Shown: in pieces, positions 35,903 to 40,178 of the stretch
Numbering within the stretch: the first letter of the stretch is position 1
How the letters are laid out: each line of letters starts with the position of its first letter
NCBI RefSeq assembly: GCF_030730205.1
Contig: NZ_JANQVQ010000197.1
Span: forward strand, 1-41,915
Direction: 5' to 3'
Origin: Paraglaciecola sp.
GTDB taxonomy: Bacteria > Pseudomonadota > Gammaproteobacteria > Enterobacterales > Alteromonadaceae
Length of the DNA stretch: 41,915 nt
Translations under genes and position numbers: made by a program
Notes under the pieces: generated by a model
Seen by the model: only the letters and a program-made list of their open reading frames with translations
Told to the model about the DNA's origin: nothing
Database searches by the model: none

Positions 35903-37094
<1,192 letters not shown>

Positions 37095-37142
37095 CGTGTA
37101 ATGGCTTAATAAAGATTCTGTTTTTAGTGACTTTGTGAGGTG

Positions 37143-37172
37143 TTAACAGAAATACAAATTAATTTGTATTTA
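37143..37172 (+). promoter_or_regulatory. Putative promoter and palindromic operator of the hvfABC-like operon
   Basis: A 22-bp perfect palindrome at 37150-37171 (arms AAATACAAATT and AATTTGTATTT) lies 88 bases upstream of the precursor gene. TTAACA (37143-37148), an 18-base spacer and TATTTA (37167-37172) can be read as a promoter. The palindrome would then cover the spacer and -10 element, the place where a repressor binds. Promoter reading is tentative; the palindrome is certain. Confidence 0.5.
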
Positions 37173-37259
37173 ATGTGAAATAAAGTTGAGTGGGCTATGG
37201 TCTATGTTATTGACGTTATCAACCCCGCAAATTTTGTTGTTAAATTAAAGGATAAACCA

Positions 37260-37706
37260 ATGAATCAAATTAAAAAAACGGCCATCGCATCGACTATTGG
37301 TGCCGTAGTGATAGGCTCGCTTGCTTCTGTGAGCTTGCAAGCCAATGCAAACCCTTTTGAAATGCAATCTCTTGAGTCTGGTTACATGTTAAGCCTCGCT
37401 GAGGGCAGCTGTGGTGGTGACAAAGCTGCCAAGGTTAAAGATAAAGAAGGTAAATGTGGTGAAGGCAAGTGCGGCGGCGATAAAGCGAAAGCCATGGCCA
37501 AGGACATGAAAGAAGGTAAATGTGGCGAAGGCAAGTGCGGCGGCGATAAAGCGAAAGCCATGGCCAAAGACATGAAAGAAGGTAAATGCGGCGAAGGCAA
37601 GTGCGGTGGTGATAAAGCGAAAGCCAAGGTTCAAGATAAAATGAAAAAAGAAGGTAAATGTGGCGAAGGCAAATGCGGTGAAGGCAAATGCGGCGGCCAA
37701 GCGTAA
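37260..37706 (+). CDS. hvfA: HvfA/bufferin-like cysteine-rich RiPP precursor, copper-binding
   Basis: A 148-residue exported peptide. A Sec signal covers about residues 1-31 (AIASTIGAVVIGSLASVSLQ, then ANA). A short spacer and then a lysine/glycine/cysteine-rich part follow. It has ten cysteines: one in EGSCGG and nine in EGKCG motifs, arranged as three EGKCGEGKCGG units with DKAKAMAKDMK-type linkers and a final EGKCGEGKCGEGKCGG. In the related Haemophilus HvfA, cysteines in EGKCG motifs are turned into copper-binding oxazolone/thioamide groups by HvfB with HvfC; the corresponding enzymes are encoded right downstream. I infer a secreted copper-chelating peptide. I chose the ATG at 37260 (AAGGA eight bases upstream); an in-frame start at 37197 would spoil the signal peptide. 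Confidence 0.9.
   Translation: MNQIKKTAIASTIGAVVIGSLASVSLQANANPFEMQSLESGYMLSLAEGSCGGDKAAKVKDKEGKCGEGKCGGDKAKAMAKDMKEGKCGEGKCGGDKAKAMAKDMKEGKCGEGKCGGDKAKAKVQDKMKKEGKCGEGKCGEGKCGGQA
37446..37643 (+). repeat. 66-bp tandem direct repeats within hvfA
   Basis: Three units starting at 37446, 37512 and 37578 are nearly identical at the base level, each 66 bp (22 codons: two EGKCG motifs plus a lysine-rich linker). The third is diverged in its last third. A partial fourth unit starts at 37650. Such repeats can expand or shrink by slippage or recombination, changing the number of modifiable cysteines. Confidence 0.93.
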
Positions 37707-37722
37707 GCTACTACAGCAATAA

Positions 37723-37754
37723 AAAGGCCAGCCAATGCTGGCCTTTACTTTTTT
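37723..37754 (+). terminator. Intra-operon terminator/attenuator between hvfA and hvfB
   Basis: Perfect ten-base stem AAAGGCCAGC (37723-37732) and GCTGGCCTTT (37737-37746) with loop CAAT, followed by ACTTTTTT. The AAGGAG ribosome site of the next gene begins immediately after. Partial read-through would give much precursor mRNA and little enzyme mRNA. Confidence 0.88.
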
Positions 37755-37765
37755 AAGGAGCCTTT

Positions 37766-38614
37766 ATGTCTAACAAAATTCCATTTACTGGTGCGGGTTT
37801 AGGGCTTAGAAGAGAAATGTTGGACCAACTCAGCCCTGTTCCTCAACAAGTTGATTTTTGGGAAATAGCACCAGAAAATTGGATCCCATTAGGCGGTAAA
37901 TATCAAAAAGTGCTTCGTCAACTTACCGAACATCATTACTTTACCTGCCATGGGCTGTCTCTTTCCATCGGCAGTCCGGCGCCTTTAGACGTGAACTTTG
38001 TGAAGAGTGTTAAACATTTTTTAGACGAGCATAACATTCAATTTTACAGTGAGCATCTGAGTTATTGTTCGGGTGAAGGTCATTTGTATGATCTTATGCC
38101 TATCCCTTTTACAGAGGATGCAGTGAAGCACGTGGTTGCCCGCATTAAACAGGTTCAAGACATTATTGAACGACCGCTCATTCTAGAAAATGTGTCCTAT
38201 TATGCGTCGCCCGGCCAAGAAATGACTGAACAGGCGTTTACCTTAGCCATATTAGAAGAGTCGGGCTGTTCGCTCTTACTTGATGTAAATAATATTTACG
38301 TCAATTCAATTAATCATGGTTACAATGCTGAGCAGTTTTTAGCGGCGATGCCCAGTCATAAAATTGCTTATGGGCATATTGCAGGGCATTTTGATGAAGC
38401 AGATGATTTGAAGGTAGATACTCACGGCGCTGATGTCATTGAACCTGTCTGGCATTTATTGCAGCAGGCTTATGCACTTCACGGTGTATTTCCAACGCTA
38501 TTAGAGCGGGATTTTAATATTCCACCGATGCCCGTTTTATTGCAAGAAGTCGAAAATATAAAATCAATCCAAGCTCAGTTTAGGCCCACGACGGCTTCAC
38601 AAAGGTTGGCGTAA
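37766..38614 (+). CDS. hvfB: DUF692 (MbnB/HvfB/BufB-type) multinuclear iron oxidase for RiPP maturation
   Basis: A 282-residue TIM-barrel protein of the DUF692 family, the MNIO enzymes that use a two- or three-iron centre to modify cysteines. The metal-ligand motifs are visible in order: FTCHGLSLSIGSP (His near residue 62), FYSEHLSYC (Glu/His near 96-97), LILENVSYYAS, LLLDVNNIYVNSINHG, YGHIAGHF, DTHGADV and LLERDFNIP. It starts with GAGLGLRREM, as usual. It should act in the cytoplasm on the precursor encoded just upstream. An AAGGAG site lies six bases before the ATG. Its stop overlaps the start of the DUF2063 gene by one base (TAATG), so enzyme and partner are coupled. Confidence 0.93.
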   Translation: MSNKIPFTGAGLGLRREMLDQLSPVPQQVDFWEIAPENWIPLGGKYQKVLRQLTEHHYFTCHGLSLSIGSPAPLDVNFVKSVKHFLDEHNIQFYSEHLSYCSGEGHLYDLMPIPFTEDAVKHVVARIKQVQDIIERPLILENVSYYASPGQEMTEQAFTLAILEESGCSLLLDVNNIYVNSINHGYNAEQFLAAMPSHKIAYGHIAGHFDEADDLKVDTHGADVIEPVWHLLQQAYALHGVFPTLLERDFNIPPMPVLLQEVENIKSIQAQFRPTTASQRLA

Positions 38615-39369
38615 TGACCGACTTTAAAGCGATACAGCAGCAATTTATTGCTCATTTGAAAGACCCCGATAATGTGGCTTTTGATTATGGTATTGAAGAC
38701 CGCAGACTTAAAATATATCGTGAATTGTTTTTTAATAATATCCTTGGTTTTCTCAGTTCTGGATTTCCGGTACTCGCTTCGATTTACCAAGAACAAGAAT
38801 GGTTAAGACTCGCTCGCCAGTTTTTTGCTAGCCACCGTTGTCGATCACCTTACTTTACCGACATTAGTTTGGAGTTTGTTGAATATTTAAGCAGCGAACA
38901 TCAAGCAACAGATTACGATCCGCCTTTTCTGAGTGAGCTTGCACATTACGAGTGGTTAGAGTTATCTATTAGTATTAAAAAATGCTCCGAACCTTTAGTC
39001 GTTTGGGAACCAAATAAAGATGATTTTCCCACTCTGATACAGTTTTCACCCTTGGCAACCTTAGTCAGTTATCATTATCCAGTCCATCGCATTAGCGTGG
39101 ATTTTCAGCCCCATTTGGCGGAAGAGCCCGTTTATCTCGTGGTATATCGAAATAATAAAGACGACGTGAATTTTTCTTTAATTAATCAAGTCAGTGCTCA
39201 CCTGTTAAATGTGATCCAGCAAAACGCGCACATAGGGATGTCAGAGTTGTTAGCCCAGATGCAATCTGTTTTACCGCAAATTAATCCTGCACAACTCAAC
39301 TTGTCAGTGCAAAATATTGTTGAACAAATGTTGAGCAAAGAAATATTGCTGCCAACAAAATGTGATTAG
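38614..39369 (+). CDS. hvfC: DUF2063 (HvfC/BufC-type) partner protein for RiPP maturation
   Basis: A 251-residue protein. Residues about 5-100 are the DUF2063 domain: FIAHLKDPDNVAFDYGIEDR, RLKIYRELFFNNILGFLSSG, FPVLASIYQEQEWLRLARQF, FFASHRCRSPYFTDISLEFV. The rest is the C-terminal domain usual for HvfC (FLSELAHYEWLELSISI). Partner proteins of this kind bind the precursor leader and present it to the DUF692 enzyme. The TAATG coupling with hvfB supports equal amounts. No DoxX-type hvfD follows, unlike in several known hvfABCD clusters. A small membrane protein at 39483 may or may not belong. Confidence 0.91.
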   Translation: MTDFKAIQQQFIAHLKDPDNVAFDYGIEDRRLKIYRELFFNNILGFLSSGFPVLASIYQEQEWLRLARQFFASHRCRSPYFTDISLEFVEYLSSEHQATDYDPPFLSELAHYEWLELSISIKKCSEPLVVWEPNKDDFPTLIQFSPLATLVSYHYPVHRISVDFQPHLAEEPVYLVVYRNNKDDVNFSLINQVSAHLLNVIQQNAHIGMSELLAQMQSVLPQINPAQLNLSVQNIVEQMLSKEILLPTKCD

Positions 39370-39421
39370 TTTTGTTGTCAAAGGACCTTTGGCAAGGTAA
39401 AAGCTACCATTTTGAGGTGGT

Positions 39422-39450
39422 TTGCATTACCATCTTGCCCCTTATATAAA
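39422..39450 (+). promoter_or_regulatory. Putative promoter for the 40-residue membrane protein
   Basis: TTGCAT (39422-39427), a 17-base spacer and TATAAA (39445-39450), 32 bases before the start codon. A short inverted repeat CAAAGG-A-CCTTTG lies upstream at 39379-39391. Confidence 0.5.
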
Positions 39451-39482
39451 ATGCTATTTATTTGCTTCTTAGGAGTTTGGTT

Positions 39483-39605
39483 ATGCAAAATGAAAACGAA
39501 GTCATCGACCCATTCAACTGGTCCTATGTTTTTGCCGCATTAATCGTTTTATTAGCCTTTCCATTGTTAAACGCCATTGTCGGTTGGTTTGTTTTTTATC
39601 TATAA
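39483..39605 (+). CDS. Small single-pass membrane protein, 40 residues
   Basis: A short gene encoding 40 residues. The N-terminus is acidic and polar (MQNENEVIDPFNW). It is followed by one long hydrophobic stretch, SYVFAALIVLLAFPLLNAIV, and ends in GWFVFYL. Support comes from an AGGAG site seven bases before the ATG, a plausible promoter 30 bases upstream, and a coherent membrane helix. It lies between hvfC and apt on the same strand, 113 bases after hvfC and 36 bases before apt. I do not recognise the family. It may be an inner-membrane small protein of the copper system or an unrelated one. Confidence 0.7.
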   Translation: MQNENEVIDPFNWSYVFAALIVLLAFPLLNAIVGWFVFYL

Positions 39606-39641
39606 ACCGCAATAAATTTTTTACTTACTACGGGGAAATTC

Positions 39642-40178
39642 GTGTCCGCCGCTTATATAAAGTCGGTCATTAAGACCGTGCCTGATTATCCTAAACCAGG
39701 GATAATGTTCCGTGATGTCACCTCAGTATTAGAGGACCACACCGCCTATTCGCAAACCATTGCATTGTTAGTTAAACACTATGCACCAATGGGATTCGAT
39801 AAAGTTGCTGGTACAGAAGCGCGAGGTTTCCTTTTTGGCGCACCTCTAGCGATTGAGCTTGGCATTGGGTTTATTCCTGTGCGCAAGCCTAGAAAACTGC
39901 CAAGAGCCGTGATCAGCGAAAGCTACGAATTAGAATACGGTACTGATTCTCTTGAAATTCACCAAGATGCGGTAAAGCCCGGTGAAAAAGTGTTGATGTT
40001 AGATGATCTTCTGGCAACGGGTGGAACAATGATCGCTACGGCAAATTTAATCCGTCGTTTGGGGGGGATTGTTGAGCACGCTGGTTTTGTTATCTCTTTG
40101 CCCTCTCTTGGTGGTGAGCAAAAATTAACACAAAACGGCGTAACCAGTTTTTCAATTTGTGAGTTTGAAGGCGAGTAA
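39642..40178 (+). CDS. apt: Adenine phosphoribosyltransferase
   Basis: Salvages adenine to AMP with PRPP. The 178-residue protein has the family blocks [52 protein letters not shown] and the PRPP loop [20 protein letters not shown]. The start is GTG at 39642, preceded by GGGGAA. It is followed by dnaX after nine bases; apt-dnaX is a conserved pair in gammaproteobacteria. Confidence 0.96.

Follow-up and report, generated by a model that had tools for sequence, protein, structure and literature searches.

The window analysed here, a 41,915-nt stretch from Paraglaciecola sp., carries a three-gene operon, hvfABC, whose genes, associated elements and relatives are with high confidence best explained as a whole by an EGKCG-class captophorin (oxazolin-type) system that would work by the steps proposed below. 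A promoter-like site and a hairpin, both conserved among close relatives, accompany the genes. The gene for the DoxX-type protein HvfX is unlinked to hvfABC in most of the related genomes compared and survives in this one as a remnant.

Operon layout

The following features were located in the window:

37176..37203, forward strand: two-box element TGAAAT-N17-GGTCT, an ECF-sigma-like promoter-like site
37260..37706, forward strand: hvfA, RiPP precursor of 148 amino acids, with a Sec-like signal peptide (by eye) and an NPF...L..GY leader
37443..37712, forward strand: 66-nt (22-amino-acid) core repeat, four copies as called, the last running past the stop codon
37723..37746, forward strand: 10-bp hairpin with a T-rich tail, terminator-like, between hvfA and hvfB
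37766..38614, forward strand: hvfB, multinuclear non-haem iron enzyme (MNIO, formerly DUF692) of 282 amino acids
38614..39369, forward strand: hvfC, DUF2063 / RRE partner protein of 251 amino acids

The three open reading frames (ORFs) of the operon lie on the forward strand within 37260-39369, the same trio that the original prediction had described, and the start of hvfC overlaps the stop of hvfB. The earlier description of an hvfABC-like operon, with an EGKCG precursor, a DUF692 enzyme and a DUF2063 partner, is borne out by these ORFs and by the family models. Among the relatives of HvfB (best 80 of 90 confirmed), hvfC adjoins hvfB in 80 of 80 loci and a KCG precursor lies upstream of hvfB in 67, which argues that the trio is not a chance arrangement. 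In four of the 13 loci that yielded no KCG precursor, the sequence upstream is shorter than 300 nt. The nearest relatives in this same set are Paraglaciecola proteins (71-79% identity), together with one from Aestuariibacter (78%), and then come other Alteromonadaceae. Loci from genomes of the same genus have the same sequences as those of the named species P. arctica and P. chathamensis, a grouping that places the window in Paraglaciecola. The genome has a single MNIO, a single DUF2063 protein and a single EGKCG gene, and the neighbouring genes scanned (nadE, glnB and apt) include no copper gene.

The HvfA precursor

HvfA contains nine EGKCG motifs, at residues 63, 68, 85, 90, 107, 112, 131, 136 and 141, and an EGSCG at residue 48, ahead of all of them, giving ten cysteines in total. 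The order 2+2+2+3 of the EGKCG motifs agrees with the pairs and final triplet that had been described from the sequence. Identity to copy 1 of the core repeat is 97% for copy 2, 82% for copy 3 and 64% for the final copy, which has a third motif. An alternative start for hvfA lies at 37197; the ATG at 37260 is preceded by AAGGA and opens the apparent signal peptide, in which a KK, a hydrophobic stretch and an ANA were recognized by eye. HvfA scored above the cut-off of the repeat model NF050137 (70.4 bits, cut-off 19.5) and below that of the equivalog NF050188 (59.1 bits, cut-off 95), and the Pfam search gave no match. By these models, HvfA falls in the wider HvfA family and outside the narrow equivalog.

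Precursors were compared across 79 of 115 loci, those with duplicate precursor ends, less than 250 nt upstream or no KCG precursor being dropped; precursor starts were set by rule rather than by a gene finder. A loose form of the leader motif was found in 77 of the 79 distinct precursors, the two exceptions having GF instead of GY, and EGSCG is present in 20. The motif number had been called high. This did not hold, since the 34 distinct precursors from loci with HvfB at least 65% identical (window included) carry 3-25 EGKCG with a median of 11, so that nine is an ordinary number; the median is 6 in the 45 precursors of more distant loci. A precursor with 58 cysteines has been described in Pseudoalteromonas piscicida (PMC12452194). 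Modification of nine or ten cysteines in HvfA is plausible by analogy, because FonBC was tolerant at position 3 of EGKCG, where it accepted Ala, Arg and Thr (PMC12668002), and the tenth cysteine lies in EGSCG.

Family assignment of HvfB and HvfC

Both proteins matched the expected families, and the family and gene roles first proposed for them were upheld by the models. HvfB matched Pfam PF05114 (5e-104) and scored 438.6 bits against the equivalog NF003818 (cut-off 360). HvfC matched PF09836 (5e-26) and PF22106 (3e-25) and scored 288.3 bits against the equivalog NF050145 (cut-off 142). The relatives with solved structures were 3bww for HvfB (5.9e-68) and 3dee for HvfC (1.3e-9), an MNIO and a PME1 protein, respectively, both from likely RiPP clusters (PMC12668002). 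Based upon residue numbering and the ERDF and RR motifs rather than an alignment, R15, R16, D249 and F250 of HvfB stand at the numbers reported for FonB, in which R15, R16 and F250 read EGKCG and D249 is the proposed base (PMC12668002). Among the best 80 of 90 confirmed loci, all 80 have ERDF and 75 have the RR motif. Scores against the MbnB equivalog (41.2 bits, cut-off 325) and the BufB equivalog (266.1 bits, cut-off 310), the latter together with a precursor that has no DUF2282 match, placed the operon outside methanobactins and bufferins. Judged by these models, the operon is a further member of the known EGKCG/oxazolin class, for which the name captophorins has been proposed (PMC12668002).

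A possible copper-buffering role had also been put forward; it is supported as likely for the window's product, by extension, by the family models and the published relatives. The oxazolone/thioamide groups ascribed to the Haemophilus product in the original prediction no longer stand, as that assignment has since been revised to 5-thiooxazole (PMC12668002, PMC13419390). 5-Thiooxazole formation and copper binding have been reported for relatives (PMC12668002, PMC12538549, PMC13419390), and by analogy the window's product would share both. EGKCG products are suspected of binding copper stochastically in a sequestration role (PMC12668002), and the Microbulbifer product was undetected in culture (PMC12538549).

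A promoter-like site upstream of hvfA and a hairpin after it

The end of the two-box site TGAAAT-N17-GGTCT lies 56 nt from the start of hvfA. A two-box pair this near a gene start resembles the -35/-10 arrangement of ECF-sigma promoters, and the site may well be one. It occurs in exact form in 27 of 34 loci with HvfB at least 65% identical (window included), and the same boxes at the ten other spacings tried (12-16 and 18-22) occur in none of the 34. A relaxed form, GAAA-N19-GTC, is present in 31 of these 34. Among loci with HvfB at 60-65% identity the exact site was found in 2 of 17 and the relaxed form in 4 of 17. Neither was found in the 28 loci below 60%, 12 of which have GAAA-N18-GTC, one base shorter (shuffled mean 2.3 in 79). 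Random 450-nt windows of the relatives' loci (best 80 of 90) contain the exact site in 1.4% of cases, true sites included.

Genome-wide, the exact site showed no enrichment in the Paraglaciecola sp. genome, with four sites against five for the reversed control, so further targets of the regulon are left unnamed. One of these sites falls within an MsrA-like gene (by eye) and was taken as chance. Across 40 genomes a longer pattern occurred 59 times and its control 31 times. About 18 of these 59 sites belong to hvf: the position of 15 shows this, and three more, on other contigs, were assigned by likeness only. The 20 PF08281 hits that represent ECF genes in the Paraglaciecola sp. genome include none with a convincing site upstream, and the search for sigma-70 promoters gave none in 36700-39700, where shuffled sequences gave a mean of 6.5.

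A Haemophilus cluster of doxX, COG3767, UPF0276 and DUF2063 genes is induced by HOCl in dependence on the ECF factor RpoE2 (PMC7907618). This cluster is taken to be hvf, and the ECF-like site in the window agrees with its RpoE2 dependence.

The terminator-like hairpin between hvfA and hvfB is also conserved. Where HvfB is at least 65% identical and at least 35 nt separate hvfA from hvfB, 29 of 36 loci have a terminator-like element (window included), compared with a mean of 0.1 for shuffled sequences; at 60-65% identity it is present in 5 of 10, and below 60% in 5 of 17. Such an element may cause partial termination or attenuation, leaving the precursor in excess of the enzymes.

Several other elements were observed in the same searches. 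A perfect 22-nt palindrome at 37150-37171, just before the promoter-like site, was considered as an operator and dropped, being unseen in the upstream regions of relatives compared. The same promoter-like site was seen at L234 (G004:C1:1705674-1705701), some 500 bp ahead of a divergent MNIO gene that has a DoxX gene near it, so the regulon may extend to further MNIO operons. At L132 (G000:C288), in the genome of the window itself, an ECF sigma gene is followed by a gene with H-x3-C-x2-C (ZAS-like), ChrR-like by eye; the pair is a possible redox-sensing regulator.

An unlinked hvfX and its remnant

It had been noted from the sequence that no DoxX-type hvfD follows the operon. The observation stands, the flanks being without DoxX, but it reflects a rule of the clade rather than a peculiarity of this locus. 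Of 60 genomes compared, including that of the window, 32 have a close hvfB (at least 59% identity), and in none of these 32 does a DoxX gene (PF07681) lie within 5 kb on the hvfB contig; the smallest distance is 18 kb. Divergent MNIO matches (at most 42% identity) have a DoxX gene within 5 kb in 16 of 26 cases. In the hvf loci of relatives (best 80 of 90 confirmed), DoxX was found in 7 of 80, searched with a profile built mostly from HvfX-type proteins, which may therefore miss other DoxX. The top matches of these seven DoxX proteins are HvfX-type references (205-244 bits, best three each); against the DoxX proteins of the Paraglaciecola sp. genome they score at most 56 bits. All seven, together with the distal Paraglaciecola proteins L220 and L222, scored 216-243 bits against the HvfX model NF050144 (cut-off 80).

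With L222 as query, 29 of the 32 genomes that have a close hvfB gave a match above 150 bits, as did 5 of the other 28; above 175 bits the counts are 29 of 32 and 1 of 28. Outside the genus, with one genome per genus, they are 11 of 11 and 5 of 27 (p = 3.6e-6, with kinship between genera remaining in this figure). The stricter proposal that distal DoxX is absent from every genome without a close hvfB proved too strong. Among the genomes without a close hvfB, G022, G024, G032 and G033 carry an HvfX variant with an insertion, G028 carries the variant split in two, and G027 has an HvfX match beside a divergent MNIO. hvfX and hvfB share a contig in 10 of the 29 genomes, at linear distances of 210 kb to 3.4 Mb, and lie on different contigs in the other 19, where closeness across contig ends is possible.

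In 14 of 18 loci of the genus a nitroreductase gene (judged by sequence start) then follows hvfX, and the one such nitroreductase checked by model passed NF008088. Upstream of hvfX, the element GAAA-N20-TCT[AT], with the same geometry as at hvfA, was searched for in 39 stretches, 35 of which had a match to the query. It was found in 18 of 19 loci of the genus, including the remnant in the Paraglaciecola sp. genome (the sole miss being G018), and in 8 of 16 outside it. Other spacings from 12 to 28 gave 0 of 19 in the genus and 0 to 2 of 16 elsewhere, and random 136-nt windows of the hvfX loci contain the element in 2.0% of cases, true sites included. The loci of the genus are related and therefore not independent, yet two separate places keep the same element. 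It is not exclusive to genomes with the operon, because G022 and G024 have it without a close hvfB.

A search for hvfD elsewhere in the genome, suggested alongside the original prediction, turned up no intact copy, only an hvfX remnant and DoxX proteins below the cut-off. The four DoxX proteins of the genome gave 73.8, 67.6 and 28.4 bits and no score against NF050144 (cut-off 80), and the best of them, just under the cut-off, matched over half of the model. The remnant lies at L239 (G000:C123), 1506-1699, where residues 23-70 and 169-187 are encoded in different frames with about 100 codons missing between the two segments. It adjoins an open nitroreductase gene (C123:1844-2389), and the promoter-like element is still upstream. 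In a draft of 344 contigs, misassembly is a possible cause. Two other genomes with a close hvfB, G004 and G021, yielded no hvfX in the genome or beside nitroreductase genes, and neither a close hvfB nor hvfX was found in G009. An unlinked hvfX under the same promoter geometry, with its loss here, was not met in the partial texts of the papers searched.

Comparison with known systems

Among the closest known systems is hvfABC(X) of Haemophilus influenzae, the oxazolin system, with which the operon shares HvfB, HvfC and a precursor with paired EGKCG and, in the window, an apparent signal peptide. The Haemophilus system has six modified cysteines and HvfX in the operon (PMC13419390), whereas the window has nine to ten sites and an unlinked, broken hvfX. 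The captophorin systems fon (fontiphorin) and ngo (gonophorin) likewise have an EGKCG precursor, an MNIO with R15, R16, D249 and F250 (FonB numbers) and a PME1 partner; they differ from the window in organism and motif number, fontiphorin having seven 5-thiooxazoles (PMC12668002). In Microbulbifer, mmr (bulbicupramide) is a similar trio, mmrABC, of marine gammaproteobacteria, and the main text on mmr does not mention DoxX; unlike that of the window, its precursors have five to eight cysteines in EGKCG units (PMC12538549). TGAAAT-N17-GGTCT does not occur in any of the six loci analysed from Microbulbifer (L030, L031, L033, L034, L037 and L048).

The operon itself is one among about 2,000 EGKCG precursors. 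This Buf_EGKCG/oxazolin family spans 31-506 residues with two EGKCG per repeat, as here; its repeat is 17 residues long, and that of the window, at 22, is a local variant (PMC12452194). The words "promoter" and "unlinked" are absent from the main text of that paper. Bufferins (DUF2282, BufABC) also combine an MNIO and a DUF2063 protein with an exported precursor, as that of the window is predicted to be, but differ in that the window's HvfB lies under the BufB cut-off and its precursor is without a Pfam match.

Proposed mechanism and alternatives

In the proposed mechanism, the RRE of HvfC would bind the leader of the unexported precursor and present the precursor to HvfB, which would oxidise the cysteine of each EGKCG, and perhaps of EGSCG, to 5-thiooxazole. 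The modified chain would then cross via Sec, shed its signal peptide and bind excess Cu(I) in the periplasm. An ECF-type promoter would turn the operon on under envelope, oxidative or copper stress, and the hairpin after hvfA would maintain the excess of precursor over enzymes. HvfX would be made from a distant gene with the same promoter type in most relatives and would have been lost in this genome. Several observations count against this explanation: HvfA scores under the HvfA equivalog cut-off, the neighbours scanned include no copper gene, the HvfX partner is broken, the ECF genes of the genome showed no convincing upstream site, the exact two-box site is as rare in the genome as its reversed control, and the Microbulbifer product went undetected in culture. 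We lean towards a broader reading of this arrangement as an Alteromonadales two-locus regulon, in which hvfABC and a distant hvfX-nitroreductase locus are tied together by a single ECF-type promoter (GAAA-N20-TCT). The exported peptide would then be acted on by HvfX and possibly by the nitroreductase, and the species of the window would be naturally hvfX-null while keeping hvfABC intact. If this is true, the role of HvfX is testable. The value of the system lies in a way into DoxX/HvfX function and into the signal that induces these peptides. Natural as well as engineered comparisons are possible in this genus, where hvfX is encoded away from hvfABC with a promoter of the same type and is retained in most genomes but lost in some.

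Four other explanations were weighed. The main role could be in envelope thiol or oxidant stress, with copper binding incidental. HOCl induction of the Haemophilus cluster via RpoE2 (PMC7907618), the ECF-like site of the window and the nitroreductase gene after hvfX in 14 of 18 loci of the genus all point this way. Against this, EGKCG relatives bind copper and evidence of detoxification has been given for them (PMC12668002, PMC12538549), and bufferins improve growth under copper stress (PMC12452194); this role is possible and less probable than copper buffering.

That the two-box element is a regulator site rather than an ECF promoter appears unlikely. Its two boxes keep a constant distance from each other among close relatives, reduced by a single base in distant ones, and they lie close to the start of the gene in the manner of the -35 and -10 boxes of an ECF promoter, even if the search of the genome's own ECF genes gave no sigma factor.

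Loss of a working HvfX may mean that the pathway is in decay, and the operon could be decaying or silent here, with the internally deleted remnant at G000:C123 as its sign; G009, of the same genus, is without a close hvfB and without hvfX. We consider this slightly less likely again, as the reading frames of all three hvf genes are open, both the promoter-like site and the hairpin are in place, and G004 and G021 likewise retain hvfB without a detectable hvfX.

Installation of oxazolone/thioamide pairs as in methanobactin, the original Haemophilus assignment (PMC13419390), is highly improbable, given its reassignment to 5-thiooxazole by the same laboratory and another (PMC13419390, PMC12668002) and the scores of HvfB, 438.6 bits as HvfB against 41.2 as MbnB (cut-off 325).

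A small ORF downstream of hvfC

A 40-amino-acid ORF with one membrane stretch (by eye) lies at 39483-39605 on the forward strand, followed by apt at 39642; Pfam and NCBIfam gave no match for it. It was considered as a fourth component of the operon and rejected, because it is present before apt in genomes without a close hvfB too, and so goes with apt. In G009, of the same genus, the order is nadE-glnB-ORF-apt-dnaX, with hvfABC absent between glnB and apt (L150, 3-2989). The ORF likewise precedes apt without a close hvfB at L162 and L171, with weaker matches at L174 and L173 (about 500 nt from apt), and it is kept near apt across the Alteromonadaceae.
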